Source of the DNA: Neorhizobium galegae bv. orientalis str. HAMBI 540
GTDB lineage: Bacteria; Pseudomonadota; Alphaproteobacteria; Rhizobiales; Rhizobiaceae
NCBI RefSeq assembly: GCF_000731315.1
Contig: NZ_HG938353.1
Location: forward strand, 2,294,001 to 2,358,000
Reading direction: 5' to 3'
Length of the DNA stretch: 64,000 nucleotides
A program made the translations under genes and the position numbers. Position 1 is the stretch's first letter. Each line of letters opens with the position of its first letter. Shown here piece after piece: positions 47,275 through 64,000 of this stretch. Below the pieces are notes generated by a model. The model did not search any database, was not told where the DNA came from, and saw only the letters and a program-made list of their open reading frames with translations.

Positions 47275-48456
47275 TCACCGCCTGACGACAAACTCGAACA
47301 CGTCCTCCTTCGGCTCGACGCCGAGACCGGCACCGGTCGGCACCACATAGGTGCCCTCGCCCGAAGCCATGTCGCCCTTCGTATAGGTGAGGTTCCGGTC
47401 GAAGATAGAGTGCTGGTATTCATGATAGGGCACGTTCTGCAGCGCCGACGCGGCCTGCAGGCTGGCCGCCATGAAGATGCCGACGCTGATCGATGCGTGC
47501 GGCATGATGTTCATGTGGAAGGCCTGCGCCATCTGGCCGATGCGGATGAACTCGGTGATGCCTGTATGGCCCATTTCCGGCTGCACGATGCTCATCGCCC
47601 GCTTTTCGAACCGTGGCCTGTATTCATAGGTGGTGCGCAATTCCTCGCCGAGTGCCAGCGGCACGCCGATGCCTGCCGCCACCCGCGCTTGGCCTTCGAG
47701 GTTTTCCGGCTGTACCGGCGCTTCGGCGAAATAGAGGTTGTAGGGTTCGAGCCGGCGGATGATGCGGATCGCCTCGCCCGCTTCGAACTTCCAGTGCAGG
47801 TCGACCATCAGGTCGATGCTCGGACCTACCGCTTCGCGCAGAGCCGCCATTTCCTTGACGATATCCTCCTCGGAAACCACCGCCGCGAACTTGATGCCCT
47901 TGTAGCCCTTGCCAACCCAATGGACGGCCAGATCGCAACGCTCCTTCAGCGTCGCTTTCGGCAGACCCGAGACATAGGCGCGGATCGTATCGTGCCGCCG
48001 CCCGCCGAGCAGCGTCGAGACCGGCACATTCAGGTTCTTGCCGGTCAGGTCCCAGAGGGCGATATCGACCCCCGCCAGCGCGTCGAGATAATAGCCGCCG
48101 AAGAAACCGCGCACCCGCATCAGGTCGTAGAGGTCCTCGTGGATGACCGCCGCATCGCCCGGATCGCGGCCGATGATGACCGGGCCTAGCACGTCGTCGA
48201 TGATCGCCTTGGTCGCCTCCGGCGCCACGATCCCATAACACTCGCCCCAGCCGACCTTGCCGCTCTCGCCGGTGACCTTGACCAGCAGCGTCATGTCGGT
48301 CGAGGGATAGATGGTGCGGTTGCCCTTGCGGATCAGGTAACCGCGCGCGTTGATCGCCTCGCCTTCCTTCAGAGGCCCAAGATAAGGCACCTCGCGGGGA
48401 ATGGAGATGATGAAGGTCTCGACCGAGACGATCGCATCGACGAAGTTTTTCGGCAT
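47275..48456 (-). CDS. Enolase-superfamily dehydratase, mandelate-racemase subgroup
   Basis: Enzyme of 393 residues that abstracts a proton alpha to a carboxylate, usually to dehydrate a sugar acid. Capping domain first, then barrel: GYKGIKFAAVVSEED, metal ligands in DLMVDLHWKFEAG (Asp), LYFAEAPVQPEN (Glu) and LALGEELRTTYE (Glu), then NIMPHASISVG with the catalytic His. This is the mandelate racemase/galactonate-dehydratase pattern. It lies 11 bases after a DHDPS-family gene in the ABC operon. The sugar acid is unknown. Confidence 0.85.
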   Translation of the reverse strand: MPKNFVDAIVSVETFIISIPREVPYLGPLKEGEAINARGYLIRKGNRTIYPSTDMTLLVKVTGESGKVGWGECYGIVAPEATKAIIDDVLGPVIIGRDPGDAAVIHEDLYDLMRVRGFFGGYYLDALAGVDIALWDLTGKNLNVPVSTLLGGRRHDTIRAYVSGLPKATLKERCDLAVHWVGKGYKGIKFAAVVSEEDIVKEMAALREAVGPSIDLMVDLHWKFEAGEAIRIIRRLEPYNLYFAEAPVQPENLEGQARVAAGIGVPLALGEELRTTYEYRPRFEKRAMSIVQPEMGHTGITEFIRIGQMAQAFHMNIMPHASISVGIFMAASLQAASALQNVPYHEYQHSIFDRNLTYTKGDMASGEGTYVVPTGAGLGVEPKEDVFEFVVRR

Positions 48457-48467
48457 GGGGTTCCGGC

Positions 48468-49379
48468 TCAGTTGGGCTTGTGATTGGTATAGGGCAGATC
48501 GGCCTCGGCCAGAAGCAACGCCAGTTCCTTGGCATCGCCCTCGTCGAATTTCGGCCCCTTGCCGCGCACGAACGTGTGCTTGATGACACCGCGCCGGCGC
48601 AGCACTTCCTTGGTCATGTGCATGCGGAAGATGGCCTGGAAATTCAGGAGCGGCAGCGAGACGTTGTAGAGTTTTCGCGTGGTCGCGACATCGCCCTTCT
48701 GCCAGGCATGGATCATTTGCGCATGGATATCGGCAAGCTCGGCCGCCGGCATGGTTCCGGCGGCACCGCGCGCCAGTTCGTCGGTGACATATCGCCCGCC
48801 GGCACCGCCGAAGATCGCATCAAGCGAACCATTGGCAGCCACCTTGATCCGGGTCAGGTGCTGGCCGCAGGGTGCAGTCTCTTCCTTGACGTAGCGGATT
48901 TCCGGCACGGCATTGGCAACCGCCGCCACTTCTTCCGGCGTGAGCCCCGCGCCGATCGGCTTCGGCTGGTTCTGCAGCATGATCGGCACGCCCGCATCAG
49001 CCGCCACCTCTTTGAAATAGGCGGTCTGGGCAGCGATGTCGTTACCGAGAGACAACGGCGCCATCACCATCGCCGCCCCTGCCCCGATCTCCGCCGCCTG
49101 CGCCACGTGCTTGGCCGCGGCCTTCGGGTCCGGATCGCTGGCACCGATGATGATCGGGATGCGCCCGCCGATCCGCTCCGCCAGCAGTTCCACCTGCCGC
49201 CTGCGCTCCTCCGGCGTCAGCGTGTCCACTTCGCTGGCGACGCCAGGATAAACGACACCGTCGACATTGCTTTCCAGCGCAAAATCGATGATCGACAGGA
49301 AATCCGCCTCGTCGATCGATCCGTCGTCGCGGAACGGTGTGGGAAGAACGGGGAAAGCCCCGGCAAGGATCTTGCTCAT
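48468..49379 (-). CDS. DHDPS-family lyase with altered active-site loops
   Basis: Class I aldolase/dehydratase-fold protein of 303 residues. It starts GAFPVLPTPFRDDGSIDEADF like the family, and the Schiff-base Lys is in IRYVKEETAP. However, the usual GTTGE loop reads GVASEVDTLT and the usual YNxP loop reads LQNQPKP, so the tyrosine of the standard relay is missing. ATG 49379 overlaps the upstream permease gene end by 4 bases. With the dehydratase next to it, cleavage or dehydration of a 2-keto-3-deoxy acid is likely, but with unusual chemistry. Confidence 0.85.
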   Translation of the reverse strand: MSKILAGAFPVLPTPFRDDGSIDEADFLSIIDFALESNVDGVVYPGVASEVDTLTPEERRRQVELLAERIGGRIPIIIGASDPDPKAAAKHVAQAAEIGAGAAMVMAPLSLGNDIAAQTAYFKEVAADAGVPIMLQNQPKPIGAGLTPEEVAAVANAVPEIRYVKEETAPCGQHLTRIKVAANGSLDAIFGGAGGRYVTDELARGAAGTMPAAELADIHAQMIHAWQKGDVATTRKLYNVSLPLLNFQAIFRMHMTKEVLRRRGVIKHTFVRGKGPKFDEGDAKELALLLAEADLPYTNHKPN

Positions 49380-50212
49380 TTGACTGCTCCGGCGGTGACG
49401 CCCTGAATGAAATAACGTTGGAGGAACATGAAGGCCACGACGATGGGCGCGGACGCGATCAGCGATGCCGCCATGGCGCCGCCCCAGTCGGAATTGACCT
49501 CGTTGAGATAGGTAAGAAGCAGGCCCGGCCCGATGGTGCGCTTCTCGTCCGAGACGATCAGCGTCATCGAATAGAGAAGGTCGTTCCACGACCACATGAA
49601 GGAATAGAGAAAGACCGTGACGATCGGCGGGATCGAGATCGGGATGACGATCGTGTGGAAGATCCTGAGATCGCTTGCCCCATCCGCCCGCGCCGCGTCG
49701 ATCAGTTCGTCCGGCACCTGGGAAAAATAGCTGTAGAGCATGTAGGTGGAGACCGGCAGCGCGAAGACGATATAGCTGAGGATCAGTCCCGGCCGGGTGT
49801 CGAGCAGGTTCAGTTCGCTCATCAGCGGGTAGATCGAGATCAGCAGCAGGCCGAACGGGAACATCTGCGCCGAGAGCATGAACAGCATCACCGGTTGGCG
49901 GCCGAAATAGCGGTATTTGGCGAAGCTGAAGCCGGCATAGAGCGCCAGAAGGGTGACCAGCGCGGCGCTGCAGGTCGAGGTGATCAGGCTGTTCATCAGG
50001 TACATCGGCAGTTTGCCGGTGGTCAGCGCCCGGATGAAATGCTCAAGGCTCGGCATGGTCGGAAACGGCGTCGGCACGACCCGGTAGAGCTCGGCATTCG
50101 CCTTCAGGGACGAGATCACCAGCCAGTAGAGCGGGAAGAACAGGAAGAAGCCGATCACAGCAAGGGCGGCAAAGAAGACGATTTTTGCCTGACGGGAGGA
50201 AAGGTCGAACAT
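49376..50212 (-). CDS. Sugar ABC permease, MalG-like
   Basis: Permease of 278 residues. EAA loop ELIDAARADGASDLRIFHTIVIPISIPPI; N-terminal LFFPLYWLVISSLKANAELYRVVP and C-terminal FLQRYFIQGVTAGAVK are typical of this class. It is one base from the partner permease. Confidence 0.92.
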   Translation of the reverse strand: MFDLSSRQAKIVFFAALAVIGFFLFFPLYWLVISSLKANAELYRVVPTPFPTMPSLEHFIRALTTGKLPMYLMNSLITSTCSAALVTLLALYAGFSFAKYRYFGRQPVMLFMLSAQMFPFGLLLISIYPLMSELNLLDTRPGLILSYIVFALPVSTYMLYSYFSQVPDELIDAARADGASDLRIFHTIVIPISIPPIVTVFLYSFMWSWNDLLYSMTLIVSDEKRTIGPGLLLTYLNEVNSDWGGAMAASLIASAPIVVAFMFLQRYFIQGVTAGAVK

Positions 50213-50213
50213 C

Positions 50214-51146
50214 TCAGTTTCCTTTCACCAGCATGCGCAGATAGAGGAAGGCAGGCGGCAGGAGCGCCGCAACCCAGAGCACGCCGACGGCGGAGGCAAA
50301 GCCGATATCCCACTGCTCGAAAGCGCGGCGATAGACCTCGACGGACAGAACCGTCGTCGCCCGCACCGGACCACCACCGGTCAGCGCGTAAATGGTGTCG
50401 AACTGCTGCAGATTGCCGATCACGCCGAGAACCACGACGATCATCAGAACCGGGCGCAGATGCGGCAGGATATGGTCGCGCAGCACCGCCCAGTTGCCGG
50501 CGCCGTCGACGCGCGCCGCATCGATCTGCTCCTTGTCGAGGTTCTGCAGGCCGGCCAGGAAAAAGGACATGAAAAGCGGGATGGAGAGCCAGATCTTGGT
50601 CAGCACCACCGCGAGCATGGCGCCTTCGGGCGTCGACAACCAGGCCTGCGGGTAGTCGATCAGGCCAAGCTCCATCAGGAAGGCGTTCAGCACGCCGTAG
50701 CGGGAATTGAAGATCCAGCCCCAGATGAAGGCGCTGACCGTAGAGGGCAGCACCCAGGGCAGCAGCGACAGCGACCGCAGCACCGCGCGGCCGGCAAACG
50801 GCTGGTTCATGATCAGCGCCCAGCCGAGACCGGCGACCAGCGTGCCCGTTGTCGTCAACACCACATAGATGGCCGTCGTCCAGAACGCCGCCCAGACATC
50901 GGGATCCGATGCGATCTTGTAAAAATTCTCGAAGCCGATGAAACGCGGCTCCATCATCTCGACGGTGTATTCGAACAGCGACAGGCCAAGCGCCGACAGA
51001 AACGGATAGAGGATGACCGCGGCAAAGGCGATCGCCGCCGGCAGCAGCAGAAGCAGCCCGATGCGGTTCTGCCCCGCTTTCAGGCCCCCACGGTTCGCAT
51101 GCGGCGAGACCGGATAGGCACCGACATTGTTTTCGATCACGGCCAT
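50214..51146 (-). CDS. Sugar ABC permease, MalF-like
   Basis: Permease of 310 residues with about six spans. First span IGLLLLLPAAIAFAAVILYPFLSALGLSLFEY; EAA loop EQIDAARVDGAGNWAVLRDHILPHLRPV. ATG 51146 was preferred over ATG 51155 because AGGA is 10 bases before the former but only one base before the latter. A RIME-like repeat separates it from the binding-protein gene upstream. Confidence 0.9.
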   Translation of the reverse strand: MAVIENNVGAYPVSPHANRGGLKAGQNRIGLLLLLPAAIAFAAVILYPFLSALGLSLFEYTVEMMEPRFIGFENFYKIASDPDVWAAFWTTAIYVVLTTTGTLVAGLGWALIMNQPFAGRAVLRSLSLLPWVLPSTVSAFIWGWIFNSRYGVLNAFLMELGLIDYPQAWLSTPEGAMLAVVLTKIWLSIPLFMSFFLAGLQNLDKEQIDAARVDGAGNWAVLRDHILPHLRPVLMIVVVLGVIGNLQQFDTIYALTGGGPVRATTVLSVEVYRRAFEQWDIGFASAVGVLWVAALLPPAFLYLRMLVKGN

Positions 51147-51206
51147 AGAGGTCATTTCCTAAGAGCATGGAGATCTGCCGGCCCGCGAGATTCCGGCGTT
51201 TCAAAA

Positions 51207-51395: not shown

Positions 51396-52667
51396 CTATT
51401 CCGACTTCTTCGCCTTCTCCATGCTGGTCGTCAGCCTTGCCTGCATGGACTTAATGGCATCGTCGGCAGACTTCTGGCCGAGCAGCGCGCCCTGCACTTC
51501 CTCGCCGATGATGTTGGTGAGATCTGCGGCATTAGACCAGATGCCGACTTCGTTGCGGCGGGCGTCACCCGTCGCGGCCGACCAGTTCTTGAGATAGGCG
51601 TCGTCGGCAACCGCCGCGCGGGCGGACTTGGTGACCGGCAGCGCGCTCATCTTCAACGGAAGGTCCGTCTGTACCTTGTCCGAAATGATGTAGGTCAGGA
51701 ACTTGTCGGCCGGGTCATCCGCCTTGGCCTTGCCGTTGGCCGCGAACTGCACGAGCAGATGGCCCCACTGGACGGAAACAGACTTGTCACCAGCCTTCAG
51801 CACAGGCGTCGGCATCGGCAGAACGTTGGCGTCGAAGGCCTGGCCTTTGCCGGAGAAATCACGCAGGAAGGTGCGGGTCTGCGGCGCGTCGAGATAGAAG
51901 GCCGAAGCGCCCTGCGCCAGCAGACGGCGCGAATCCGGACGGTCTATTTCCGGAGCCGCCAGGCGGTCCTTCATGAGACCGACCATGAAGCCGAGCGCAT
52001 CGCGGCTCTGCCGGCTGTCGACAACGACCTTGCCGGCGTCATCGATGATCCGGCCACCATGCACCCAGTTCCAGACCATGAAGTCGATCAGGATCGAGCC
52101 GTTGTTCTTGGTCGCCATGGAGTACGGCACCGAGTTGGGCACCTTGTCTCGCACCGCGACCAGAGCTTTCTTGAAGTCGTCGACGGTCTTCGGAGCGTCA
52201 TTGATGCCGGCCTTGGCGAGAACTTCCTTGTTGGCCACCATGCCGATCGAACCGGACAGAAGCGGCAGTGCAAGCTGCTTGCCGTTGATATTGCCCATGG
52301 CGAGCGCATCCGGCGCGAAAGCCACTTCCAGCTTGTCCTTGCCATAGACCGTGTTCAGGTCGACGAGATTATCGAGGCTCGCGAAGGTCGGCAGCCAGCG
52401 TTCGGAAAGCTGGGCGATATCGGGCAGGGTCTTCGACCGGGCGCGCAAAAAGATGTTCTTCTGCATATCGCCCCAGGCGAAGCCGAGCGGCTCGACCGTC
52501 AGCTTCTCAGCCTTCTGAAAATTGTCCAGGACACCCTGGACAATCGCCTTGTTGGCCTCTTCCGCATAAGTGAAGCTCATGAAGCTCAGGTCGGCTGCCT
52601 TGGCGGCACCCGAGCCGAGCACAAGCGCGACGGCGGCGGTGCCGATCAGTCTGGTAAAGGTGTTCAT
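51396..52667 (-). CDS. Sugar ABC substrate-binding protein, family 1
   Basis: Periplasmic binding protein of 423 residues with signal peptide (LIGTAAVALVLGSGAAKAA). Mature start DLSFMSFTYAEEANKAIVQGVLDNF; later GNINGKQLALPLLSGSIGMVANKEVL and LLAQGASAFYLDAPQTRTFL. ATG 52667 has GGGAGG 8 bases upstream. Linked to the two permeases, UgpC-type ATPase, SDR and IclR/SMP-30 fusion gene. Confidence 0.9.
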   Translation of the reverse strand: MNTFTRLIGTAAVALVLGSGAAKAADLSFMSFTYAEEANKAIVQGVLDNFQKAEKLTVEPLGFAWGDMQKNIFLRARSKTLPDIAQLSERWLPTFASLDNLVDLNTVYGKDKLEVAFAPDALAMGNINGKQLALPLLSGSIGMVANKEVLAKAGINDAPKTVDDFKKALVAVRDKVPNSVPYSMATKNNGSILIDFMVWNWVHGGRIIDDAGKVVVDSRQSRDALGFMVGLMKDRLAAPEIDRPDSRRLLAQGASAFYLDAPQTRTFLRDFSGKGQAFDANVLPMPTPVLKAGDKSVSVQWGHLLVQFAANGKAKADDPADKFLTYIISDKVQTDLPLKMSALPVTKSARAAVADDAYLKNWSAATGDARRNEVGIWSNAADLTNIIGEEVQGALLGQKSADDAIKSMQARLTTSMEKAKKSE

Positions 52668-52752
52668 CAAATCCTCCCGAAACGATGATGATGGAACTCT
52701 GTTTCAACCCGAAAAAGGTCAAGCGGCGAGCGCCGTATCCGCCTTGCCTTTG

Positions 52753-53559
52753 TTAGACGACGCCGCCATCGACGATGAATGTCTGTGACGTGATGAGGCG
52801 GGAATCGTCCGCTGCCAGAAACAGCGCCATGCGGGCGATATCGGGCGGCAGCAGATGCTCCTTGAGGCACTGGACCTCGAGGTATTCGGAAAACTTGCCC
52901 TGATAGACACGCTTGGCGCGCTCCACCTGGCGCTCGGTCAGCACCCAGCCGGGCGCAATCGAGTTGACGCGGATATTGCGTGCCCCCAGTTCGCGGGCGA
53001 GCGACTTGGTCATGCCCATGACGGCGGATTTGGCGGTCGTATAGAAGATCAGGCCGGCAGCGCCGCGCATCCACGAGATCGAGCCCATGTTGATGACCGA
53101 CCCGCCGCCAAGTTCCGCCATCTCCGGCACGACGGCCTGCACGGCGAAGAACTGGTGGCGCAGGTTGGTCTGGAAACGTTCGTCCCAATAGTCCGGCGTC
53201 ACGTCTTCGAGCGGCATGCGGTCGTCATTGCCGGCATTGTTGACGAGCACTCGGATAGGGCCGATCTCGGATCGGAGTGCCTCGATCCCTTCCTTCAGGG
53301 CGTCGATGTCACGCAGATCCGCCGCACGATAGAACGGGGTATTGCCGGTCTTCCTGCCGACCGTTTCGGCCGTCTCGTCGGCCACATTGGCATCAAGGTC
53401 GAGAAAGCCGACCTTGCAGCCCTGGGCGCAGAAATGCTCGACAAGCGACGCGCCGATGCCCGATCCTCCGCCGGTGATCAGCACGCCCTTGTCCTTGAGG
53501 CTCGGATATGTCGCGGCCTCGACCTCAACCTTTGCAATGAGTTCGGGATGGATGGTCAT
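52753..53559 (-). CDS. SDR-family dehydrogenase, probable sugar dehydrogenase
   Basis: Short-chain dehydrogenase of 268 residues. Cofactor motif [20 protein letters not shown], Asp after strand 2 ([12 protein letters not shown]) pointing to [11 protein letters not shown], active site [28 protein letters not shown] (Ser, Tyr, Lys). It resembles the SDR sugar dehydrogenases (galactose/arabinose/xylose 1-dehydrogenases) of De Ley-Doudoroff loci. Together with the SMP-30 lactonase domain, it could provide the sugar-to-lactone step. It overlaps the ATPase gene by 4 bases. Confidence 0.85.
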
Positions 53560-54650
53560 GCGGCCTCCAGGGCAACGGGACGCGCAGAGGCAAGCGAAAG
53601 GCCATCGGCGGAAAAGACATGAATCATCACCGGATCGACATGCACGCCGATCGGCTCGCTGCGCTTGACGGCGCGGTCGCCGGACAGGCGGACGACGACC
53701 ATCTCTTCGGAGCCTTCGAGCGCCACATAGGCATAGGTGTCGCTGCCGAGATGCTCGGTCATGGTGACGGTGCCGGCCAGCGATTCCGGCGCGCCGCGGC
53801 TCACCAGCTCCACATGCTCCGGCCGGATGCCGATCTCCGCCGGCACCGAAGACAAGTCACGCGGCAGACGCACCTCTCCGCCCGGAACGACAAAGACGCC
53901 TTCGCTCTTCCTGGCGCCGAGGCTCAGGAAATTCATGCGCGGCGAGCCGATGAAGCCCGCAACGAAGCGGTTCACCGGCTTGTTGTAGAGATCGAGCGGC
54001 GAGCCGATCTGCTCGACGCGACCGGAATTCAGCACGACGATTTTGTCGGCCAGCGTCATCGCCTCGATCTGGTCGTGGGTGACATAGACCATGGTGGTGC
54101 CGAGCGTATCCTTCATCCGGGCGATCTCGATGCGCATCTCGACGCGCAGAGAGGCGTCGAGGTTCGAAAGCGGCTCGTCGAACAGGAAGATGCGCGGTTC
54201 GCGCACGATGGCGCGGCCGATCGCGACGCGCTGGCGCTGGCCGCCGGAGAGCTGGCGGGGCTTGCGCTCCAGATAGGTGTCGATGCGGAGTTTCCTGGCC
54301 GCCTGGACGACGCGGGCATCGATCTCCTGCTTCGGCGTGCCAGCGAGTCTCAGCGCATAACCCATGTTTTCGGCAACCGTCATATGCGGATAGAGCGCGT
54401 AGGACTGGAAGACCATGGCAATGCCGCGCTTGGCCGGCGGCACGTCGTTCACCAGTTCGCCGTCGATCGCCATATGGCCCGACGTGATTTCGTCGAGGCC
54501 GCAGATGAGCCGCAGTAGCGTCGATTTTCCGCAGCCCGACGGACCGACGAAAGCGACGAATTCGCCGTCTTCGACCGTCAGGTCGATGCCCTTCAGCACC
54601 TCTGCCGAGCCGAAGGATTTGCGGATGTCTTTGAGTTCAAGCTTGGCCAT
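53556..54650 (-). CDS. Sugar ABC transporter ATPase, UgpC/MsmK type
   Basis: ATPase of 364 residues. Walker [17 protein letters not shown], signature [17 protein letters not shown], Walker [17 protein letters not shown], switch His [11 protein letters not shown], and the C-terminal regulatory part [14 protein letters not shown]. All motifs intact. ATG 54650 is chosen by family start ([14 protein letters not shown]). It lies 17 bases after the fusion gene. Confidence 0.94.
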
Positions 54651-54667: not shown

Positions 54668-56392
54668 TCAGCCCGCGAACATCTGGGCTGCCTGGCCCTT
54701 GATGCCGGTATCGATGGAAAACACGCTGCCGGAGAGCGGCGCTTCGGAAAGCTGCGCTGCCGACAACCGGATGCGGGCGGACGTCACGAACAGCGTCTGC
54801 ATGTCGGGACCGCCGAAGACGCAGCTCGTCGGGCGCGGTATCGGCAGATTGATCACCCGCTCGACCTTGCCCTGCGGATCGTAGCGGGTAACACACCAGC
54901 CGTCCCAATGGGCGATCCAAACGAAACCTTCCGCATCGACCGTCATGCCGTCCGGCTTGCCCTCGGCTTCCGGCACCGTGATGAAGGTCCGGCGGTTTGC
55001 GACCTCACCGCTTTCGATATCGAAATCATAGGCATAGACCGTCTGCCGGTTGGTATCGGTGAAGTAGAAGGTGCGGTCGTCCGGGCTCCAGCCAAGCCCG
55101 TTCGAGACGTGGAAACCGCGATCCATCTCCCGCGACCGCCCGTCCGGATCGATCCTCCAGAGCCGACCTTGGTCCGGCGTCGTGTCGATCGCAAGCGTAC
55201 CGGCCCAAAGCCTGCCGCGACGGTCGCACTTGCCGTCGTTGAAACGATTGCCGGGACGGTCTGCCTCCGGCCGCGAGATCGTCGTGATATCGCCGGTCGA
55301 AAGATCGATGCCGCGAATCTCGCCATGCATGGCGGCGACGAAACCGCCGCGAGCGCGAGGGATGACAAAACCGATCAGTTCCGGCAACTGCATGGAGGTA
55401 TAGGTGCCCTTCACCGGATCGCCGGTATGCACGGCCGGCGCCAGAATATCGACGAAATAGAGCTTCTTGTGCTCGGGCGACCAGTGCGGACCTTCGCCGA
55501 GAAACGTGCTTGCCGGAATGACGCAGCGCACGTCGGCGCGATCGGGGCCGAGAGGACGCGGCTTGACCGCAAGCGACATGGGAAACTCTCCAAAATTGCC
55601 GGATGTGCGGCGGGCTGCCTCGATGACGTCCCGGCCGAAAGCGTGCAGCCGGTCGACCGGCAGGCGGAAGGACGGGCCGATAATGCCGATCGCACCAATC
55701 GGCTCCCCGCGGTGGTTGAGGACAGGGGCTGCGACCGAGGAAATGCCGATATGCTGTTCGTCGACCGAGACGGCATAACCGCGGGCCTTGGTGAGATCGA
55801 GCTGGCGGCTGAGTTCCTCGGCGTTGACGATCGTGTTCGGGGTCAGTCGCTCCAGTTCGATGCCGTCGAGCAATGCGCGGCGCTTTTCGAGCGACAGATG
55901 CGCCAGGATGGCCTTGCCCAGGCCGCTGGCATGCGGTGCTGCCCGTGAACCGACACCGTTGTTGAGGCGCAGCGGCTGCGGCACCTCCCGCTGGTCGATG
56001 TAAAGGACGCTGCCGCCGTCGAGCACGCCAAGACGGATCGCCTCGCCGGTCAGGTCGCGAAGCCGCGCCAGTTCCGGTTCGGCCGCGCCGCGCAGATCGA
56101 AATTGTCCCAGACCTTGTGGGCCCATTGGAACAGCCGCGGCGCCAACCGGTAGACTTGGTCGCGCGTATCGAAGTGGAGCAGCCGCTCGTCGACCAGCGC
56201 CTGCAGCAGCCGGTGCAGCGTGCCCTTGGGCAGTTGCGTCTGGTCGAGCAGTTCGGTGAAGCGCAGGCCGCGGGCTTCCGCCGCCACGGCATCGACGATC
56301 TGGATGCCGCGCGTCAGCGCCTGAACACCCGGCACGCCGCCCGTATCATTGGCGACATCCTTGTCGATCGCTTCCAGTTGTACCTTGGCCAT
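54668..56392 (-). CDS. IclR regulator fused to SMP-30/gluconolactonase
   Basis: Two-domain protein of 574 residues. Residues about 20-85 are an IclR winged helix ([29 protein letters not shown]), 90-270 the IclR ligand domain ([35 protein letters not shown]). Residues about 287-560 are a six-bladed SMP-30 lactonase (FLGEGPHWS with metal Glu300, [36 protein letters not shown]). At the joint, codon 272 is ATG with GGAGAG six bases before it, so a free lactonase may also be made. ATG 56392 follows GGAGAGG. It is divergent from the enolase-dgoK-dgoA operon. It may sense and process the same lactone. Confidence 0.9.
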
Positions 56393-56458: not shown

Positions 56459-56466
56459 AGTTATCT

Positions 56467-56481
56467 TGGAACTAAGTTCCA
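56467..56481. promoter_or_regulatory. Probable IclR operator
   Basis: TGGAACT-A-AGTTCCA is a perfect 15-base palindrome between the IclR/SMP-30 gene and the divergent enolase-dgoK-dgoA operon. IclR-family sites such as that of KdgR have the same form, a purine-rich half with GTTC-type arms around a short centre. Control of both directions is likely. Confidence 0.68.
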
Positions 56482-56534
56482 TGTCAACAGCGAAACTGAA
56501 GCGGCCAGACACTGACCGCCCATGGGAGGATATC

Positions 56535-57686
56535 TTGCGCATTACCAAAGTGGACCACTGGTTGGTCCGTATGCCTTTTACCGAGGACATTCTCTGGGGG
56601 TCCGGCCGGCGAATCGGCACGACCCGGCTGATCTGCCGAATCGAAACGGACACGGGGATCATCGGCTGGGGGGAGACGATCTCGTTGATCGCGAACGTGC
56701 CGGCGGTGTTTGCCGATATCGTCGCGCCTCTGGCGATCGGATATCCGGTCGCGGATGCGGAACGTTTCCACCGGCATGTGCTCGGCGCCGGCTTCTACCA
56801 CCACAAGCGTGCTGCGGTGATGGCGATCTGCGCCATGGAAATGGCAATGTGGGATGCGCTCGGCAAACAGGCGAGCCTGCCGCTTTATGCCATGTGGGGC
56901 GGCCGCTGGCGCAAGGATGTCGAGGCCGCAGCCTATCTCTTCACCAACGATCCCAAAGGTCTTTCCGAACGCCTGAAGCGGTTCCTCGATCTCGGATACA
57001 CCACCTTCAAGGTGAAGATCGGCTTCGATGAAAGGAGCGACATCACGCTCGCCGAAACATCCCGAAAGGTGATCGGCGACCATCCGCTACGGCTCGACGT
57101 CAACGGCGCCTGGAACCCGGCGACCGCCAAACGCCAGCTCGAAAAGCTGAAAGCCTTCGATCCCGCCTATGTGGAACAGCCGCTGGAACTCGATGATATT
57201 GCCGGCCATGCGGCGCTGGTCGCAAATTCCTCCGTGCCGATCGCGCTCGACGAAAGCGCCTATACGCTGTCCGATGTCGGCAACATCATCCGCGCCAATG
57301 CAGCCGATGTCGTGCTGCTCGATCCGCACGAGGCAGGCGGTCTGTGGCAGACGATCAAGGCGGCTGCCATATGCGAGGCGGTAGGCATCCCGGTGACGCT
57401 GCATTCCGGCGCGGAACTGGCCCTGTCGCAATCGGCCTATATCCACCTCGCGGCCTCGCTTCCCAACATGTCGATCGCCATCGATACCGAACGCGCCTAT
57501 CTCGGCGGCGATATCTCGCCCAATCCGCCGGTCTTGAAAGACGGCTGTTTCCAGGTGCCGGAAGGGCCGGGCCTCGGCCTCGAAGTGGATATCGAAATGC
57601 TCGAAAAATACCGCGTGCCCGGCATTGCCGGCGCTTATCTCGATACCGAGCGCAAGGACTGGTTCCCGGTCAAACCCGCCTATTAG
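56535..57686 (+). CDS. Enolase-superfamily sugar-acid dehydratase
   Basis: Enzyme of 383 residues of the muconate-lactonising/mandelate-racemase superfamily. The barrel has FKVKIG (Lys159, Lys161), metal ligands in RLDVNGAW (Asp188), YVEQPLEL (Glu214) and ALDESAY (Asp239). At the sixth strand, where MLE enzymes carry the second lysine, it has VLLDPHEAGG. TTG 56535 is chosen: GGGAGG is 5 bases upstream and the protein then begins RITKVDHWLVRMPF like the family; ATG 56481 lies inside the operator palindrome. It heads the operon with two KDGal kinases and an aldolase, so it probably forms a 2-keto-3-deoxy acid. Confidence 0.85.
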   Translation: MRITKVDHWLVRMPFTEDILWGSGRRIGTTRLICRIETDTGIIGWGETISLIANVPAVFADIVAPLAIGYPVADAERFHRHVLGAGFYHHKRAAVMAICAMEMAMWDALGKQASLPLYAMWGGRWRKDVEAAAYLFTNDPKGLSERLKRFLDLGYTTFKVKIGFDERSDITLAETSRKVIGDHPLRLDVNGAWNPATAKRQLEKLKAFDPAYVEQPLELDDIAGHAALVANSSVPIALDESAYTLSDVGNIIRANAADVVLLDPHEAGGLWQTIKAAAICEAVGIPVTLHSGAELALSQSAYIHLAASLPNMSIAIDTERAYLGGDISPNPPVLKDGCFQVPEGPGLGLEVDIEMLEKYRVPGIAGAYLDTERKDWFPVKPAY

Positions 57687-57699
57687 GATTATTCTCCCC

Positions 57700-58623
57700 A
57701 TGTATATTGCAATTGAATGGACCTCCGCTGCCTTCCGTGCGCTGCTTCTCGACGACGACACGGTGCTGGGAGAAAAGAAGAGCGACCGCGGCACAACCAA
57801 GGTCACGGCCGGCGGTTTCGAAACCGCACTCCGGGAAGAACTCGGCGATTGGAGCGAGAAAGCAGAAAAAATCCTGTTTTCCGGCATGATCACCAGCCGC
57901 AACGGCTGGATCGAAAGCCCCTTCGCCCCAGTGCCGACTGGGCCTGCGGATTTGTTGGCCCAGGCGGTTGCGCATGAGGTCGAGGGTCTGCCGCCGCTGA
58001 TCTTCCTGCCCGGCATTGCCCAGACCAAACCCTTGCCCGACGTGATGCGCGGCGAGGAAATGTCGCTCTTCGGCCTCACGGAAACCGACGGCATCTTCGT
58101 GCTGCCCGGTCCGCATGCGAAATGGGTGACGATGGAGGGTGGCCGCATCACCGCCATCACCACATACATGTCCGGCGAAATCCTCAATCTGCTCAAGAAG
58201 GATTCGCTCGTCTCTCGCCTCATCCCCGCGACGTACGAGGAGCGCCCGGACGCCTTTCGCCGCGGGGTCCAGACGGCGCTTGAACAAGGGACCCTACCCG
58301 GCCGCATCCTCGCCCGCGTCTTTTCAGCGCGCAGCCTGGTCCTGTTCGATCGTCTGGCGCCGGAAGAGATCGCCGACTATCTGACCGGTCTGATGATCGG
58401 CGCGGAAATCTCGGAAGCGCTCGGGCAGGACAAACCGAGGAAAATCAACATTGTCGGTCACGCCGCGCTCGCCGAGCGTTACAAGACGGCGCTCGAGATC
58501 TTCGGTGCGCAAACAAATCTCGTCACGCCCGACATCGCCGCCGGTTTCCGCCGGGTCGCCTCTCGACAGGGTGATACGTCACGGGCTATCGAAGGGGCGA
58601 AAGCCGCTTCGGGAGAAATGTGA
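57700..58623 (+). CDS. Divergent 2-dehydro-3-deoxygalactonokinase homologue
   Basis: DgoK-family protein of 307 residues, paralogous to the next gene (SGMITSRNGW and PLPDVMRGEE are shared). Its phosphate-binding loops are degraded: DWGTSS reads EWTSAA at residues 6-11 and PGTHSKW reads PGPHAKW at 136-142. It may therefore be inactive, have altered activity, or be a regulatory partner of the intact kinase. It lies 13 bases after the dehydratase gene and two bases before the second kinase. Confidence 0.82.
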   Translation: MYIAIEWTSAAFRALLLDDDTVLGEKKSDRGTTKVTAGGFETALREELGDWSEKAEKILFSGMITSRNGWIESPFAPVPTGPADLLAQAVAHEVEGLPPLIFLPGIAQTKPLPDVMRGEEMSLFGLTETDGIFVLPGPHAKWVTMEGGRITAITTYMSGEILNLLKKDSLVSRLIPATYEERPDAFRRGVQTALEQGTLPGRILARVFSARSLVLFDRLAPEEIADYLTGLMIGAEISEALGQDKPRKINIVGHAALAERYKTALEIFGAQTNLVTPDIAAGFRRVASRQGDTSRAIEGAKAASGEM

Positions 58624-58625
58624 CC

Positions 58626-59555
58626 ATGCCAAAACCCACCTCGATCATCCTCGATTGGGGAACGAGTTCGCTGCGCGCCATGCTGGTTTCGGAAACAGGT
58701 GAAACGCTCGATACCCGCGATACGTCGAGCGGCGGCATTCAGTTCGTCAAGAACGGCGCCTTCGAGCAGGCGTTGATGGAAGCCGTGGGCGAATGGTTTT
58801 CGGCGCATGGCCCCCTGCCCGTCCTGGCAAGCGGTATGATCACCAGCCGCAACGGCTGGGTCGAAGTACCCTATGTGGACACGCCCGGCGGGATCGCCGA
58901 GCTTGCCGCCGGCACGCGCAAACTCACTCTTCAGAACGGCGCCGTCATCACCTTCCTGCCCGGCATGCGCGATCCGGCCGCCAACCCTTTTCCGGACGTG
59001 ATGCGTGGCGAGGAAACCCAGATCGTCGGCTACGGCCTCGGGCGCGACCGCACCCTGGTCCTGCCCGGCACCCATAGCAAATGGGCACGGGTCAGGGACA
59101 ACCGCATCGACGGTTTCCAGACCTACGCGACCGGCGAGGTATTTTCGCTTCTGACCAAACATTCGTTCATCGCCAAGGCTCTGGAGCCGCAGCCGGGCGC
59201 CGAGCCGGACTGGCAGAGCTTCGATCGCGGAGCAGAATTTGCAGCGAGCGATTCGGCCGCCGCCGATGCCTTCCTGTCGGCGATCTTCAGCGCTCGCACC
59301 GGGATTCTCGACGGCAAATTGAAGCCGGAGGATATCCTCGATTACGTTTCCGGCCTCGTCATAGGCTCGGAATTCCGCCAGGCCCGCGCTGCCGGTTGGT
59401 TCAAGAACGGCGACACGATCGGCATCGTCGGCAACAACGTGCTCAACAGCCGCTACGGCCGGATCGCGCCCCTGTTCGGCCTGATGGTCGAACCCGCTCC
59501 GGAAAACGCCGCGAAACGCGGCATCATGCTGATCGCGGCCGAAGCCGCGCAATAA
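58626..59555 (+). CDS. dgoK: 2-dehydro-3-deoxygalactonokinase
   Basis: Kinase of 309 residues that phosphorylates 2-keto-3-deoxygalactonate. ASKHA-type motifs are intact: ILDWGTSSLRAML (Asp10), GMITSRNGWVEVP, PFPDVMRGEETQIVG, and VLPGTHSKWARV (147-153). ATG 58626 with GGGAGA upstream is preferred to GTG 58620. It lies two bases after a divergent paralogue and 12 bases before dgoA. Confidence 0.92.
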   Translation: MPKPTSIILDWGTSSLRAMLVSETGETLDTRDTSSGGIQFVKNGAFEQALMEAVGEWFSAHGPLPVLASGMITSRNGWVEVPYVDTPGGIAELAAGTRKLTLQNGAVITFLPGMRDPAANPFPDVMRGEETQIVGYGLGRDRTLVLPGTHSKWARVRDNRIDGFQTYATGEVFSLLTKHSFIAKALEPQPGAEPDWQSFDRGAEFAASDSAAADAFLSAIFSARTGILDGKLKPEDILDYVSGLVIGSEFRQARAAGWFKNGDTIGIVGNNVLNSRYGRIAPLFGLMVEPAPENAAKRGIMLIAAEAAQ

Positions 59556-59567
59556 AGGAGTTTCGAG

Positions 59568-60188
59568 ATGACCTTCCAAGAGGCGCTCAAGGCATGCAAT
59601 CTCGTAGCCATCCTGCGCGGCATCAAGCCGGAAGAAGCGGAAGCGGTGGGCGAGGTACTCGTCGAGGCGGGTTGGCGGATCATTGAAGTGCCGCTCAACT
59701 CCCCCGATCCGCTGAAAAGTATCGAAAAGCTCGTCAAGCGTTTCGGAGACCAGGCACTGATCGGTGCCGGCACCGTACTGACCCCGGCCCAGGTCGCCGA
59801 TGTCGCCGCGACCGGCGCCAAGGTGATCATCTCGCCGAACGCGAATGTCGAAGTCATCAAGGCCAGCCGCGCGGCCGGCATGGTGAGCCTGCCGGGTGTC
59901 GCAACCCCGACGGAAGCCTTCGCGGCGATCGAGGCCGGCGCCAGCGGCATCAAGGCCTTTCCGGCGGAAGCCATCCCGCCCTATGTCATCAAGGCATGGA
60001 AGGCGGTACTGCCGAAGGACATTCCGGTTCTGGCGGTCGGCGGTGTCACGCCCGAGAACATGGCTGTCTACGCGCAGGCGGGTACCGCCGGTTTCGGCAT
60101 AGGCTCCTCCCTTTACAAACCCGGTGCCGATATCGCCTCCATCGGGCAAAAGGCGAGAGAATTCATGGACGCGATGCGCGCGCTCTGA
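59568..60188 (+). CDS. dgoA: 2-dehydro-3-deoxy-6-phosphogalactonate aldolase
   Basis: KDPG/KDPGal-type class I aldolase, 206 residues, cleaving KDPGal to pyruvate and glyceraldehyde 3-phosphate. Start NLVAILRGIKPEEA, catalytic Glu40 in IIEVPLNSP, GAGTVLTPAQV, and the Schiff-base Lys129 in SGIKAFPAEA. VGGVTPENM and GFGIGSSLYKPG complete the phosphate site. It ends the dehydratase-kinase operon. Confidence 0.94.
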   Translation: MTFQEALKACNLVAILRGIKPEEAEAVGEVLVEAGWRIIEVPLNSPDPLKSIEKLVKRFGDQALIGAGTVLTPAQVADVAATGAKVIISPNANVEVIKASRAAGMVSLPGVATPTEAFAAIEAGASGIKAFPAEAIPPYVIKAWKAVLPKDIPVLAVGGVTPENMAVYAQAGTAGFGIGSSLYKPGADIASIGQKAREFMDAMRAL

Positions 60189-60940: not shown

Positions 60941-61792
60941 TCACTTGGCCTTCAGGACAGAGACCGCAAGTTCGCTGTTATGAACATATTCGTTGGCGTC
61001 CGGCTGGCGTTGGACGAGCAGGATGAACAGCAAGTCCGTCAGCATCAGCTGCGCATCGCGCGCCGTGATCGACGAGGACCGCACGCGCTCCTCGTCCGCA
61101 ACCGTATAAAGTCGGATATCCGCCGCCTGCATCAGCGGATTGCCATTGAGACCGGTAATCGCAATCACCGTCGCGCCGCGCTGGCGCGCCAACTCGGCAA
61201 TCCTCAGCGTCTCGAAACTGGTGCCGGAATAGGAAAGTGCCAGCAGCACGTCCTGACTGTTGAGCGTCGAGACATTCGCCATCTGCACATGGCTGTCGCT
61301 GTCATGCAGAACGTTGCGGCCGAGCTTCATCAGCTTGTAGGAAAAATCGCGAGCGACCAGCGACGATGCCCCGACGCCCGCCATATGGATGCGTCGCGCA
61401 TCGTTGAGAGCTGTCAGGGCCCGCTCGATCTCCTGCTCGTTATTGACCGCAAGCGTCTGCTGCATGGACAACATCTTGCTGCCGATAAGCTTCTGCAGGA
61501 TCGTCAGATAACTGTCGCCGACCTCGATCGAGCCGTGGATCATCCCGGGAGGCGCGTGCCATTCCTGCGCCTTCGCCTCGCTGACGGCGAGTTTCAGCTC
61601 CTGGTATCCGGCAAAACCCAGCTTCTGGCTGAATTTCACGACACTCGACTGGCTGCGCCCCGTCTCGGCCGCAAGCGCTGCGGAGGAAAGCCGCAGCATC
61701 TGGTCCGGGTTATCGAGGATGAACTGGCCGATCTCCCGGTCCGCCGGCGCCATATCCTCTATCTGCGCGTTGATCTTCTTTAAGACTGACAT
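60941..61792 (-). CDS. RpiR-family transcriptional regulator
   Basis: Regulator of 283 residues. N-terminal HTH: LSSAALAAETGRSQSSVVKFSQKLGFAGYQELKLAVSEA. C-terminal SIS domain binds phosphosugars (RRIHMAGVGASSLVARDFSYKLMKLG, VLLALSYSGTSFETLRIAELARQRGATVIAITG). ATG 61792 is the family start; the frame extends upstream without similarity. It is divergent from the MurA-like and amino-sugar kinase genes, so an amino-sugar phosphate is a probable ligand. Confidence 0.92.
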   Translation of the reverse strand: MSVLKKINAQIEDMAPADREIGQFILDNPDQMLRLSSAALAAETGRSQSSVVKFSQKLGFAGYQELKLAVSEAKAQEWHAPPGMIHGSIEVGDSYLTILQKLIGSKMLSMQQTLAVNNEQEIERALTALNDARRIHMAGVGASSLVARDFSYKLMKLGRNVLHDSDSHVQMANVSTLNSQDVLLALSYSGTSFETLRIAELARQRGATVIAITGLNGNPLMQAADIRLYTVADEERVRSSSITARDAQLMLTDLLFILLVQRQPDANEYVHNSELAVSVLKAK

Positions 61793-61892
61793 GCGTTCCT
61801 TCGGAAGCTTCGCGATAGGGTTGGGACGATGGAGCAGGATACCACCGCAACGCCCGTCGACAACAGCGTTTCCATTCTTAAACCGAGGATGG

Positions 61893-61932
61893 ATTATCGC
61901 AGATAATGCCGCACAAAGGAATAAAAAATTCC
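61893..61932. promoter_or_regulatory. Two dyads, candidate RpiR operators
   Basis: ATTATC-GCA-GATAAT (61893-61907) is a perfect 15-base palindrome. GGAAT-5 bases-ATTCC (61918-61932) follows and resembles the GGAA-n-TTCC sites of RpiR-type regulators such as IolR. They lie in the 228-base gap between the divergent RpiR and MurA-like genes. Confidence 0.6.
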
Positions 61933-61938
61933 GAATGA

Positions 61939-61966
61939 TTGACAGAGACGCGCCGTGGTTTAGTTT
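61939..61966 (+). promoter_or_regulatory. Candidate promoter for murA-like operon
   Basis: TTGACA at 61939-61944 matches the -35 consensus, and TAGTTT at 61961-61966 is a fair -10 with 16-base spacing. It lies directly downstream of the GGAAT/ATTCC dyad, so a repressor bound there would cover the -35. Confidence 0.5.
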
Positions 61967-62020
61967 CGAGGAAGCGCAGATTGATTTGAGATTCACCGCA
62001 CCTCTTCGACAGGTTTCGTC

Positions 62021-63277
62021 ATGGACAGATTACGGATCGTCGGCGGTCATCGGCTCCAGGGAGCCGTTACCATTGCCGGGGCGAAAAACGCGGCGCTCCC
62101 GCAGATCGCGGCAACGCTGCTCAGCCCCTACCCGGTCGAACTCACCAACCTGCCACAGGTCAGCGATGTGGAAAACATGCTGGGGGTCGTCGAGTTGCAT
62201 GGCGCCGTCGTCACCCGCACCGGCCATTCCACCATCGTCGACGCCAAGGCAATCGTCTCCAAAGAAACCTCTTACGACACCGTTCGCAAGATGCGCGCCA
62301 CCGTGCTCGTCCTTGCACCGCTGCTCGCCCGCTTCGGCCAGGCGCGCGTATCGCTCCCCGGCGGCTGCGCCATCGGCGCGCGTCCGGTCGACATGCATGT
62401 CAAGGCGCTGGCAGCGCTGGGCGCGGACATTGATATCGAGAGCGGCCTGATCGTTGCCTCGGCACCGGGCGGATTGAAGGGTGGCCGCATCGTGCTTCCC
62501 TCCCCATCCGTCGGTGCCACGGAGACGGCGATGATGGCCGCGACCGCCGCCAAGGGCGAAACCGAAATCCTCAACGCCGCCCGCGAACCCGAAGTCGCCG
62601 ATCTTGCCGCCTGCCTGATCGCCATGGGCGCACGTATCGAAGGCGCCGGCACCCACCGCATCCTGATCCAGGGCTCAACCACCTGGCAGCCGGCGAAACA
62701 TCACGGCATTCCCGACCGCATCGAAGCAGGAACCTACGCCGTGGCAGCCGCGATCACCGGCGGCATGCTGGAGCTCACCAACGCACGACTGGAAAACATG
62801 GCCTCCATCGTGCAGGTGCTAGAGACGATGGGCGTCAGCATCTGGCCGAGCGACCGCGGCCTTGTCGTTTCGCGCGAAGGACCGCTGAAGGCAACCGATA
62901 TCACCACCGAACCCTATCCGGGTTTCCCGACCGATCTCCAGGCGCAGTTCATGGCGCTCGCCGCCTGTGCCGAAGGCGCTTCGCTGATCCGCGAAACTGT
63001 CTTCGAAAGCCGCTTCATGCACGTGCCGGAGCTGATGCGCCTCGGCGCTAATATCGCGCTCCAGGGGACCACCGCATTGGTACGCGGCGGAGCACCACTG
63101 AAGGGTGCGCAGGTGATGGCGACGGATTTGCGCGCCTCCGTCTCGCTGGTACTCGCCGGGTTGGTCTCGTCGGGCGAAACGACCATCAACCGCGTGTACC
63201 ACCTCGACCGTGGTTACGAACAACTCGACCGTAAGCTTGGCCAATGCGGAGCCGATATCGAGCGGATCAGCGCATGA
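62021..63277 (+). CDS. UDP-GlcNAc 1-carboxyvinyltransferase paralogue
   Basis: MurA-family enzyme of 418 residues, which would transfer enolpyruvate to UDP-GlcNAc, the first step of peptidoglycan synthesis. Active residues look intact: AGAKNAALP (Lys22, Asn23), [18 protein letters not shown] with Cys116, and [11 protein letters not shown] with Asp306; RFMHVPEL and [16 protein letters not shown] are also present. Being in a sugar-catabolic neighbourhood under an RpiR regulator, and overlapped by 4 bases with an amino-sugar kinase gene, suggests it is a second MurA rather than the housekeeping copy. This cannot be proved without the genome. Confidence 0.9.
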
Positions 63278-64000
63278 CGGCCGGAACCGAACGCTTTTTC
63301 CTGGGTGTCGATGGCGGCGGTACCGGCTGCCGCGCCCGTATTGAGGACGAATCCGGCGCCGTACTCGGCCAGGGTCTTTCCGGCCCTGCAACGACGCGGC
63401 TCGGCATCGAGCAGGCCTGGGCCTCGATCTCGCGCGCCTTTAACGCCGCCCTGGACGAAGCCGGGTTCGGACCCGACAAGATGGCCCTCACCCATGTGGG
63501 CGTCGGCCTTGCAGGCACCGGTCGCAAGGGTTCCGTCGAAGCCTTGAAGGCGATCCCGCATCCGTTCGCCAGCATCGATTTCGTCAGCGACGGCATGGGT
63601 GCGTGCCTCGGCGCGCATTCGGGTCGCGACGGCGCGATCGTCATTGCCGGCACCGGCTCGATCGGGCTCGGTTTTGCAGAAGGCCGCGACCTGCGCCTCG
63701 GCGGCTACGGATTTCCCATTTCGGACGAAGGCAGCGGTGCAGATCTCGGCCTGAAAGCGGTGCAGCTGGCGCTTCGGGCTCATGACGGGCGGATCGAGAA
63801 AACCGCTCTGCTCATCGAGGTCATGCAACGTTTCCAGAACGATCCTTATGAAGCCATCGGCTGGATGGACCGGTCGTCGGCCACCGACTATGCCTCGTTG
63901 GCGCCGATGGTGATGCGCCATGCAGACCAGGGCGACTCCGTCGGCCGCCGCATCGTCCAGAGCGCCGCCGAACAGATCGATACGCTGGTGCGTACGCTGT
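63274..64000 (+). CDS. BadF/BcrA-type N-acetylglucosamine kinase (3' end cut)
   Basis: ASKHA-fold kinase running off the window end; 242 residues are visible. Phosphate-1 motif FLGVDGGGTGCRARIEDESG, then THVGVGLAGTGRK, the DFVSDGMGACLGAH region with the catalytic-type Asp, and VIAGTGSIGLGF as the phosphate-2 motif. GGYGFPISDEGSGADLGLKAV is typical of GlcNAc/glucosamine kinases of the BadF group. ATG 63274 overlaps the MurA-like stop by 4 bases (ATGA). Downstream genes are unseen. Confidence 0.88.
   Translation, partial: MTAGTERFFLGVDGGGTGCRARIEDESGAVLGQGLSGPATTRLGIEQAWASISRAFNAALDEAGFGPDKMALTHVGVGLAGTGRKGSVEALKAIPHPFASIDFVSDGMGACLGAHSGRDGAIVIAGTGSIGLGFAEGRDLRLGGYGFPISDEGSGADLGLKAVQLALRAHDGRIEKTALLIEVMQRFQNDPYEAIGWMDRSSATDYASLAPMVMRHADQGDSVGRRIVQSAAEQIDTLVRTL

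Follow-up and report, generated by a model that had tools for sequence, protein, structure and literature searches.

A gene joining an IclR-type regulator to an SMP-30 lactonase, with a candidate operator and a candidate internal start

Trigger enzymes and regulator–enzyme fusions, such as those of the PutA and MocR types, combine DNA binding and metabolism in one polypeptide chain. Here, we describe a gene of Neorhizobium galegae bv. orientalis str. HAMBI 540 that joins an IclR-type regulator to an SMP-30-type lactonase. Its folds differ from those of the PutA and MocR types and, in the present case, a separate free enzyme may arise from the same gene. The protein shares both common Pfam domains of the IclR family, and its nearest solved structure, 1mkm, is an IclR regulator. 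However, a full lactonase has been added after the effector domain. In the same way, the protein resembles SMP-30, regucalcin and the sugar lactonases in having a full SGL domain with aligned catalytic residues (best solved relatives regucalcin, 4gn7, and the SMP-30 family protein 7plb), but here the enzyme is joined to a DNA-binding regulator. A third likeness is to genes with an internal in-frame start. In the cases of HrcQ, SpaO and ClpB, one frame yields a long form and a C-terminal short form. Those proteins are unrelated to ours, for which the short form would amount to an entire enzyme.

No paper treating IclR together with SMP-30, or IclR together with regucalcin, was found in the open-licence literature, a scope outside which most subscription papers fall; nor did that literature yield a description of an IclR–lactonase fusion. 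The companion domains of IclR-family factors have been tallied (PMC5882156), in passages that do not mention SMP. The text considered from PMC8222616 has no mention of "fused" or "fusion", and the excerpts of PMC9007349 and PMC3281065 hold nothing about an IclR–SMP-30 fusion. Some public records name both domains; the architecture is therefore already visible in databases.

Domain structure and distribution of the fusion

We call the whole stretch of DNA analysed, 64,000 nucleotides in length, the window. The fusion gene and its domains are as follows.

54668..56392, minus strand: IclR–SMP-30 fusion gene, 574 aa (translation, one terminal stop)
56168..56320, minus strand: HTH_IclR DNA-binding domain, residues 25–75 (Pfam, 47 bits; cut-off 22)
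55601..56116, minus strand: IclR_C effector domain, residues 93–264 (Pfam, 135 bits; cut-off 24)
54773..55501, minus strand: SGL (SMP-30) lactonase domain, residues 298–540 (Pfam, 304 bits; E300, N385, N431 and D481 align with regucalcin)

All three domains score above the Pfam cut-offs, and the SGL match spans positions 1–246 of the 246-position profile, that is, a complete propeller domain. The protein carries both the HTH_IclR plus IclR_C pair that marks the IclR family and the complete SGL domain that marks SMP-30. Hence, translation and Pfam agree with the sequence-only reading of this locus, which had described a single frame holding a complete IclR regulator and a complete SMP-30 lactonase. 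An NCBIfam profile search returned no equivalog at its cut-off for the fusion protein. Within the genus, 14 genomes, the window's own counted, have the open fused frame at 91% identity or above. It is also found in six Devosia-family genomes (79–82% identity), in addition to the first one identified. That the frame recurs in all these genomes makes a sequencing artefact improbable. Some other genomes, N. galegae included, have copies with a broken frame (P0244, P0239 with P0127, P0242 and P0251), which represent either decay or sequence errors.

A search for the same fusion in related genomes had been proposed as a check. Such fusions were found: once 14 duplicates had been removed, the loci yielded 134 different fused coding sequences, from both alpha- and betaproteobacteria. 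In a protein search, 666 relatives emerged from 8000 scored candidates. Among 120 of these, as listed at 60–98% identity, all but three have the three domains. Overall, the architecture was seen from 32% to 98% identity. In whole-genome searches, matches occurred in 25 of 57 genomes of the genus (E 1e-90), 7 of 297 of the family, 18 of 136 of the Devosia family and 16 of 397 at order level (each E 1e-100). Three other families gave 8/23, 25/199 and 1/15 (E 1e-90), with one match ending at residue 409. Across the class, matches came from 7 of 385 genomes, in two cases confined to the lactonase half. Both halves were matched in 38 of the 80 contigs kept, Burkholderiales among them. In addition, 122 plasmid records match at least 80% of the query length, and plasmid-borne copies include those on A. 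fabrum C58 pAt and S. meliloti pSymA. Judged from these comparisons, the fusion is old and widespread but patchy, and no fresh accident.

The same reading had pictured two genes merged by loss of a stop codon, with the old start still usable; taken as a recent event, this would make the old start a relic. Stand-alone lactonases of similar length that start near the same point do exist, such as P0151 (303 aa, as judged from the lactonase frame). But the architecture persists to 32% identity and into the Burkholderiales. Furthermore, when the IclR half was used as query, the nearest full-length unfused IclR protein among the matches listed was 39% identical; the closer entries that were read, P0250 being left out, proved to be split, cut short or frame-broken. 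The sole pair found split, in Salinarimonas, also speaks against this account. There, the IclR and lactonase halves are separate frames, located on equally long contigs, and the reading frame changes just past the joint. Since each half groups within fused clades in trees, the Salinarimonas arrangement looks like a later split. A recent merger is thus highly improbable. In the same trees, the IclR halves mostly cluster and the lactonase halves interleave with stand-alone lactonases (one group of 54). With that interleaving, a midpoint root and several low supports, a single fusion event is not established.

A candidate internal start at the joint

The joint between the two halves contains the following elements.

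55586..55591, minus strand: Shine–Dalgarno-like GGAGAG, codons 268–269 (sequence; codon 268 is GGA in 13 of the 15 thinned relatives at 75% identity or above)
55577..55579, minus strand: ATG codon 272, possible inner start codon for a 303-aa lactonase (81 of the 134 fused sequences have Met here)

The sequence confirms what had been pointed out at this site, namely an ATG at codon 272 (55579, minus strand) with GGAGAG six bases 5' of it. TTTCCC lies directly 3' of GGAGAG. The inner Shine–Dalgarno energy, −6.4, falls inside the range of the 15 window gene starts that were scored (+1.7 to −9.7; two of the 15 were placed 3 bases off). Among 129 internal in-frame ATGs in 15 window genes, 4, codon 272 included, have an anti-Shine–Dalgarno affinity of −6.4 kcal/mol or stronger; hence the window alone could not decide on an internal start. 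This background counts in favour of a rival reading, in which the gene has a single product, a bifunctional regulator–lactonase. Met272 would then be a structural linker residue, and GGAGAG would be present by chance or in another role, for example slowed translation between folding domains. The residues at position 272 across the 134 fused rows (Met 81, Ile 21, Val 9, Leu 5, other or gap 18) are compatible with a single product too, since a structural hydrophobic residue would also give Ile, Val or Leu, as seen in 35 rows.

Codon usage upstream of Met272 argues against a single product. Thinning at 90% nucleotide identity left 104 of 132 clean fused rows; as the rows are related to one another, Fisher values for the counts serve as a guide and no more. 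Fifteen of the thinned rows reach 75% identity; their glycine codon 268 is the rare GGA in 13, GGG in 1 and GGT in 1. At other glycine codons of these rows GGA occurs in 34 of 769 cases, and the next best glycine column has it in 5 of 15. Across all thinned rows with Met272, codon 268 is GGA in 28 of 57 (146/1898 elsewhere). The figure for rows lacking Met272 is 7 of 37, still somewhat raised against 96/928 elsewhere.

We also compared anti-Shine–Dalgarno affinity with that of synonymous shuffles. Among relatives at 75% identity or above, the four highest of 568 columns for excess affinity are, in order, 274, 271, 272 and 273, with z = −4.35 at column 272. A similar signal was found in a second group, from Devosia (6 rows, 47–50% identity), where column 272 is second of 547; this too tells against a single product. 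Conversely, the joint is unremarkable in the 50–75% group (rank 34 of 548), though every row there keeps the ATG, as a single product would allow. In rows below 50% identity that lack Met272, column 272 ranks 114 of 546; some energies in that run were outliers and hence the rank, not z, was used. Tests on individual sequences were mostly non-significant, with 3 of 57 Met272 rows at p ≤0.05. Thus, signs that a start and Shine–Dalgarno sequence are conserved beyond the need of the protein are seen among the relatives at 75% identity or above and in one Devosia group, not in the 50–75% group. Persistent excess affinity was likewise observed at columns 438–441 (about 55070–55081 of the window) in several groups, where there is no start codon; this is a caution for the method.

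Other properties of the joint were measured. Synonymous diversity was computed for 13 unthinned rows with identities of 78% or more. It is low at codons 261–275 (five-codon means 0.15–0.28) and higher at codons 276–285 (0.55–0.64), against a mean of 0.42 for the gene. For low diversity, nine-codon windows at the joint take places 12 to 48 among 484, which means that still lower values occur elsewhere. In three groups, the mRNA at codon 272 ranks 26 of 265, 70 of 264 and 14 of 264 for openness, which does not decide the matter. The lowest window of corrected GC3 falls at the joint in six overlapping groupings with Met272. A weaker dip occurs in two groups without Met272, as a single product would permit, and the dip is missing in two groups with Met272 and in the deepest rows. 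The GC3 dip was therefore rejected as proof of initiation, the finer groups showing it without Met272 too, and lends an internal start weak support.

Taken together, the comparisons support selection on an internal ribosome-binding site in the window's clade and one more group, not in the family at large. The suggestion that the inner start is still usable stands in part: within the window's clade, the codons of its ribosome-binding site show unusual conservation, but elsewhere the signal is faint or missing, even in some groups that have the ATG. Two products, a regulator–lactonase and a free lactonase, are most likely on these sequence patterns. A single bifunctional product is a possible, though less probable, alternative.

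A candidate operator in the apparent promoter

The region upstream of the fusion gene contains promoter-like elements and a palindrome, of which a second copy lies further along the operon.

56482..56487, minus strand: −35-like TTGACA (by eye; TTGAC conserved in 8 aligned loci)
56467..56481, no strand: perfect 15-bp palindrome TGGAACTWAGTTCCA, candidate operator (core conserved upstream of the fusion)
56460..56465, minus strand: −10-like GATAAC (by eye; 16 bases from the −35-like element)
52692..52706, no strand: weaker palindrome copy, upstream of the binding-protein gene

On the minus strand, the palindrome TGGAACTAAGTTCCA occupies the 16-base spacer between TTGACA and GATAAC. The −10-like element is weak, and a consensus promoter scan did not list a promoter for the fusion gene. 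As is typical of IclR regulators, a palindromic candidate operator thus lies upstream of the protein's own gene and operon. Of 23 distinct fused loci of at least 75% identity, 22 (all but L118) have the core GGAAC-N3-GTTCC in the 350 bases that precede the match. At lower identity, it was found in 3 of 23 loci (56–75%), 1 of 3 (50–56%) and 0 of 84 (below 50%). The core is absent from 722 kb comprising the 52 fetched loci without the fusion. In 8 aligned loci, TTGAC and the half-sites stay while the flanks drift. The weaker copy before the binding-protein gene is also present in four Neorhizobium-type loci and in R. sullae, and L034 has a perfect copy; no copy is evident there in L030 or L035. 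A search of the promoter region against plasmids gave no match.

The motif of group 2 IclR proteins, as given in PMC8222616, is TGRAACAN1-2TGTTYCA. The outer half-sites of our palindrome, TGGAAC and GTTCCA, fit this motif, but the inner bases differ. The palindrome in the promoter spacer is new here.

Since the palindrome lies in the apparent promoter and its core is conserved in close loci but absent from the 722 kb of loci without the fusion, the fusion may bind it and is probably an autoregulator of the sugar-oxidation operon. Because the palindrome sits between the −35 and −10 elements, we infer that the fusion represses, rather than activates, its own operon.

The operon and the probable role of the lactonase

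Genes flanking the fusion are listed below.

53556..54650, minus strand: ABC transporter ATPase (Pfam)
52753..53559, minus strand: SDR dehydrogenase (Pfam; nearest NCBIfam model D-xylose 1-dehydrogenase, below its cut-off)
51396..52670, minus strand: ABC sugar-binding protein (Pfam)
50214..51155, minus strand: ABC permease (Pfam)
49376..50212, minus strand: ABC permease (Pfam)
48468..49379, minus strand: DHDPS-family lyase or dehydratase (Pfam; ATG at 49379)
47275..48456, minus strand: MR/MLE (enolase superfamily) dehydratase-like enzyme (Pfam, NCBIfam, structure comparison)
56481..57686, plus strand: divergent second MR/MLE gene (the first in-frame ATG after an upstream TTG overlaps the palindrome)
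57700..60188, plus strand: two dgoK-type kinases and a dgoA-type aldolase (profile matches)

Downstream of the fusion, an ABC importer is encoded together with three enzymes: an SDR dehydrogenase, a DHDPS-family protein and an MR/MLE dehydratase-like protein. This neighbourhood is conserved. Among 38 fused loci of at least 12 kb, the dehydratase was matched in 32, the DHDPS gene in 32, the SDR gene in 31, and each permease and the ATPase in 30; dgoK was matched in 21, the binding protein in 16 and dgoA in 8. These counts are from tblastn at 1e-20, and the SDR, ATPase and kinase matches need not be orthologues. A lactonase step fits between the dehydrogenase and the dehydratase of the operon's pathway. 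The dgoK and dgoA relatives suggest a galacto-type keto-deoxy acid. Since the main-operon enzymes score below named cut-offs, we claim no sugar for the operon.

In an alignment to the solved structure, E300, N385, N431 and D481 match E18, N103, N154 and D204 of regucalcin, which we take to be its catalytic and metal residues. The full set of four is present in 119 of the 134 fused rows, the window's protein among them. They are intact in 79 of 81 rows with Met272, compared with 40 of 53 without. At least one is changed in the remaining 15 rows (L018, L023, L037, L109, L111, L130, L131, L139, L173, L174, L196, L198, L199, L200 and L201), 13 of which also lack Met272; possibly, these 15 are sensor-only forms. 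Such changes would suit a lactonase part that is mainly a sensor, binding a lactone and signalling to the IclR part while catalysing little or nothing. However, the window's protein and nearly all Met272 rows retain the four residues, and the pathway neighbours require a lactonase at that step. We regard a mainly sensory role as unlikely.

The reading that we favour, with a probability of about 55%, is of an old autoregulatory fusion, most likely a repressor, that would carry a working lactonase of the operon's pathway; in the window's clade, a free 303-aa lactonase would also be made from ATG272. Without sugar, the IclR part would occupy the site between the −35 and −10 elements. Imported sugar would be oxidised to a lactone, and the lactone or a later intermediate would release the promoter. 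Fusion and free lactonase would then hydrolyse the lactone. That the regulator would destroy its own inducer is a plausible hypothesis. An elaboration, which we put forward tentatively and consider rather doubtful, is a self-limiting one-gene circuit. Here, the repressor's enzyme would destroy the inducing lactone, a selected inner start would supply free lactonase, and the ratio of the two forms would set the time for which the operon is on. The enzyme domain would have drifted to a pure sensor in some of the lineages that lack the inner start.

If the favoured reading is correct, the gene would be a compact feedback device, with regulator and pathway enzyme in one chain and a second start that uncouples the supply of enzyme from that of regulator. 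It would provide a clean test case for selection on an internal start in a fused gene, as related fusions that have the start can be set against those that lack it. In addition, a sugar-oxidation operon of Rhizobiaceae, Devosiaceae and others would gain a regulator and a candidate operator.

Several further observations concern the surrounding genes. The MR/MLE enzyme at 47275–48456 is close to the solved, functionally unnamed proteins 2ppg and 4h1z (482 bits) and 2nql and 4dn1 (419 bits), for which the fusion operon may supply a pathway. The ATG of the divergent MR/MLE gene, at 56481–56483, has a poor Shine–Dalgarno sequence (−3.3) and overlaps the palindrome; the actual start may lie further in. 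The tandem dgoK-type kinase genes at 57700–59555 each encode a full DGOK domain. Finally, 60941–63999 holds an RpiR-type regulator followed by an EPSP-synthase-family (MurA-like) gene and a BadF-type ATPase/kinase, and looks like a separate amino-sugar or wall-recycling locus.
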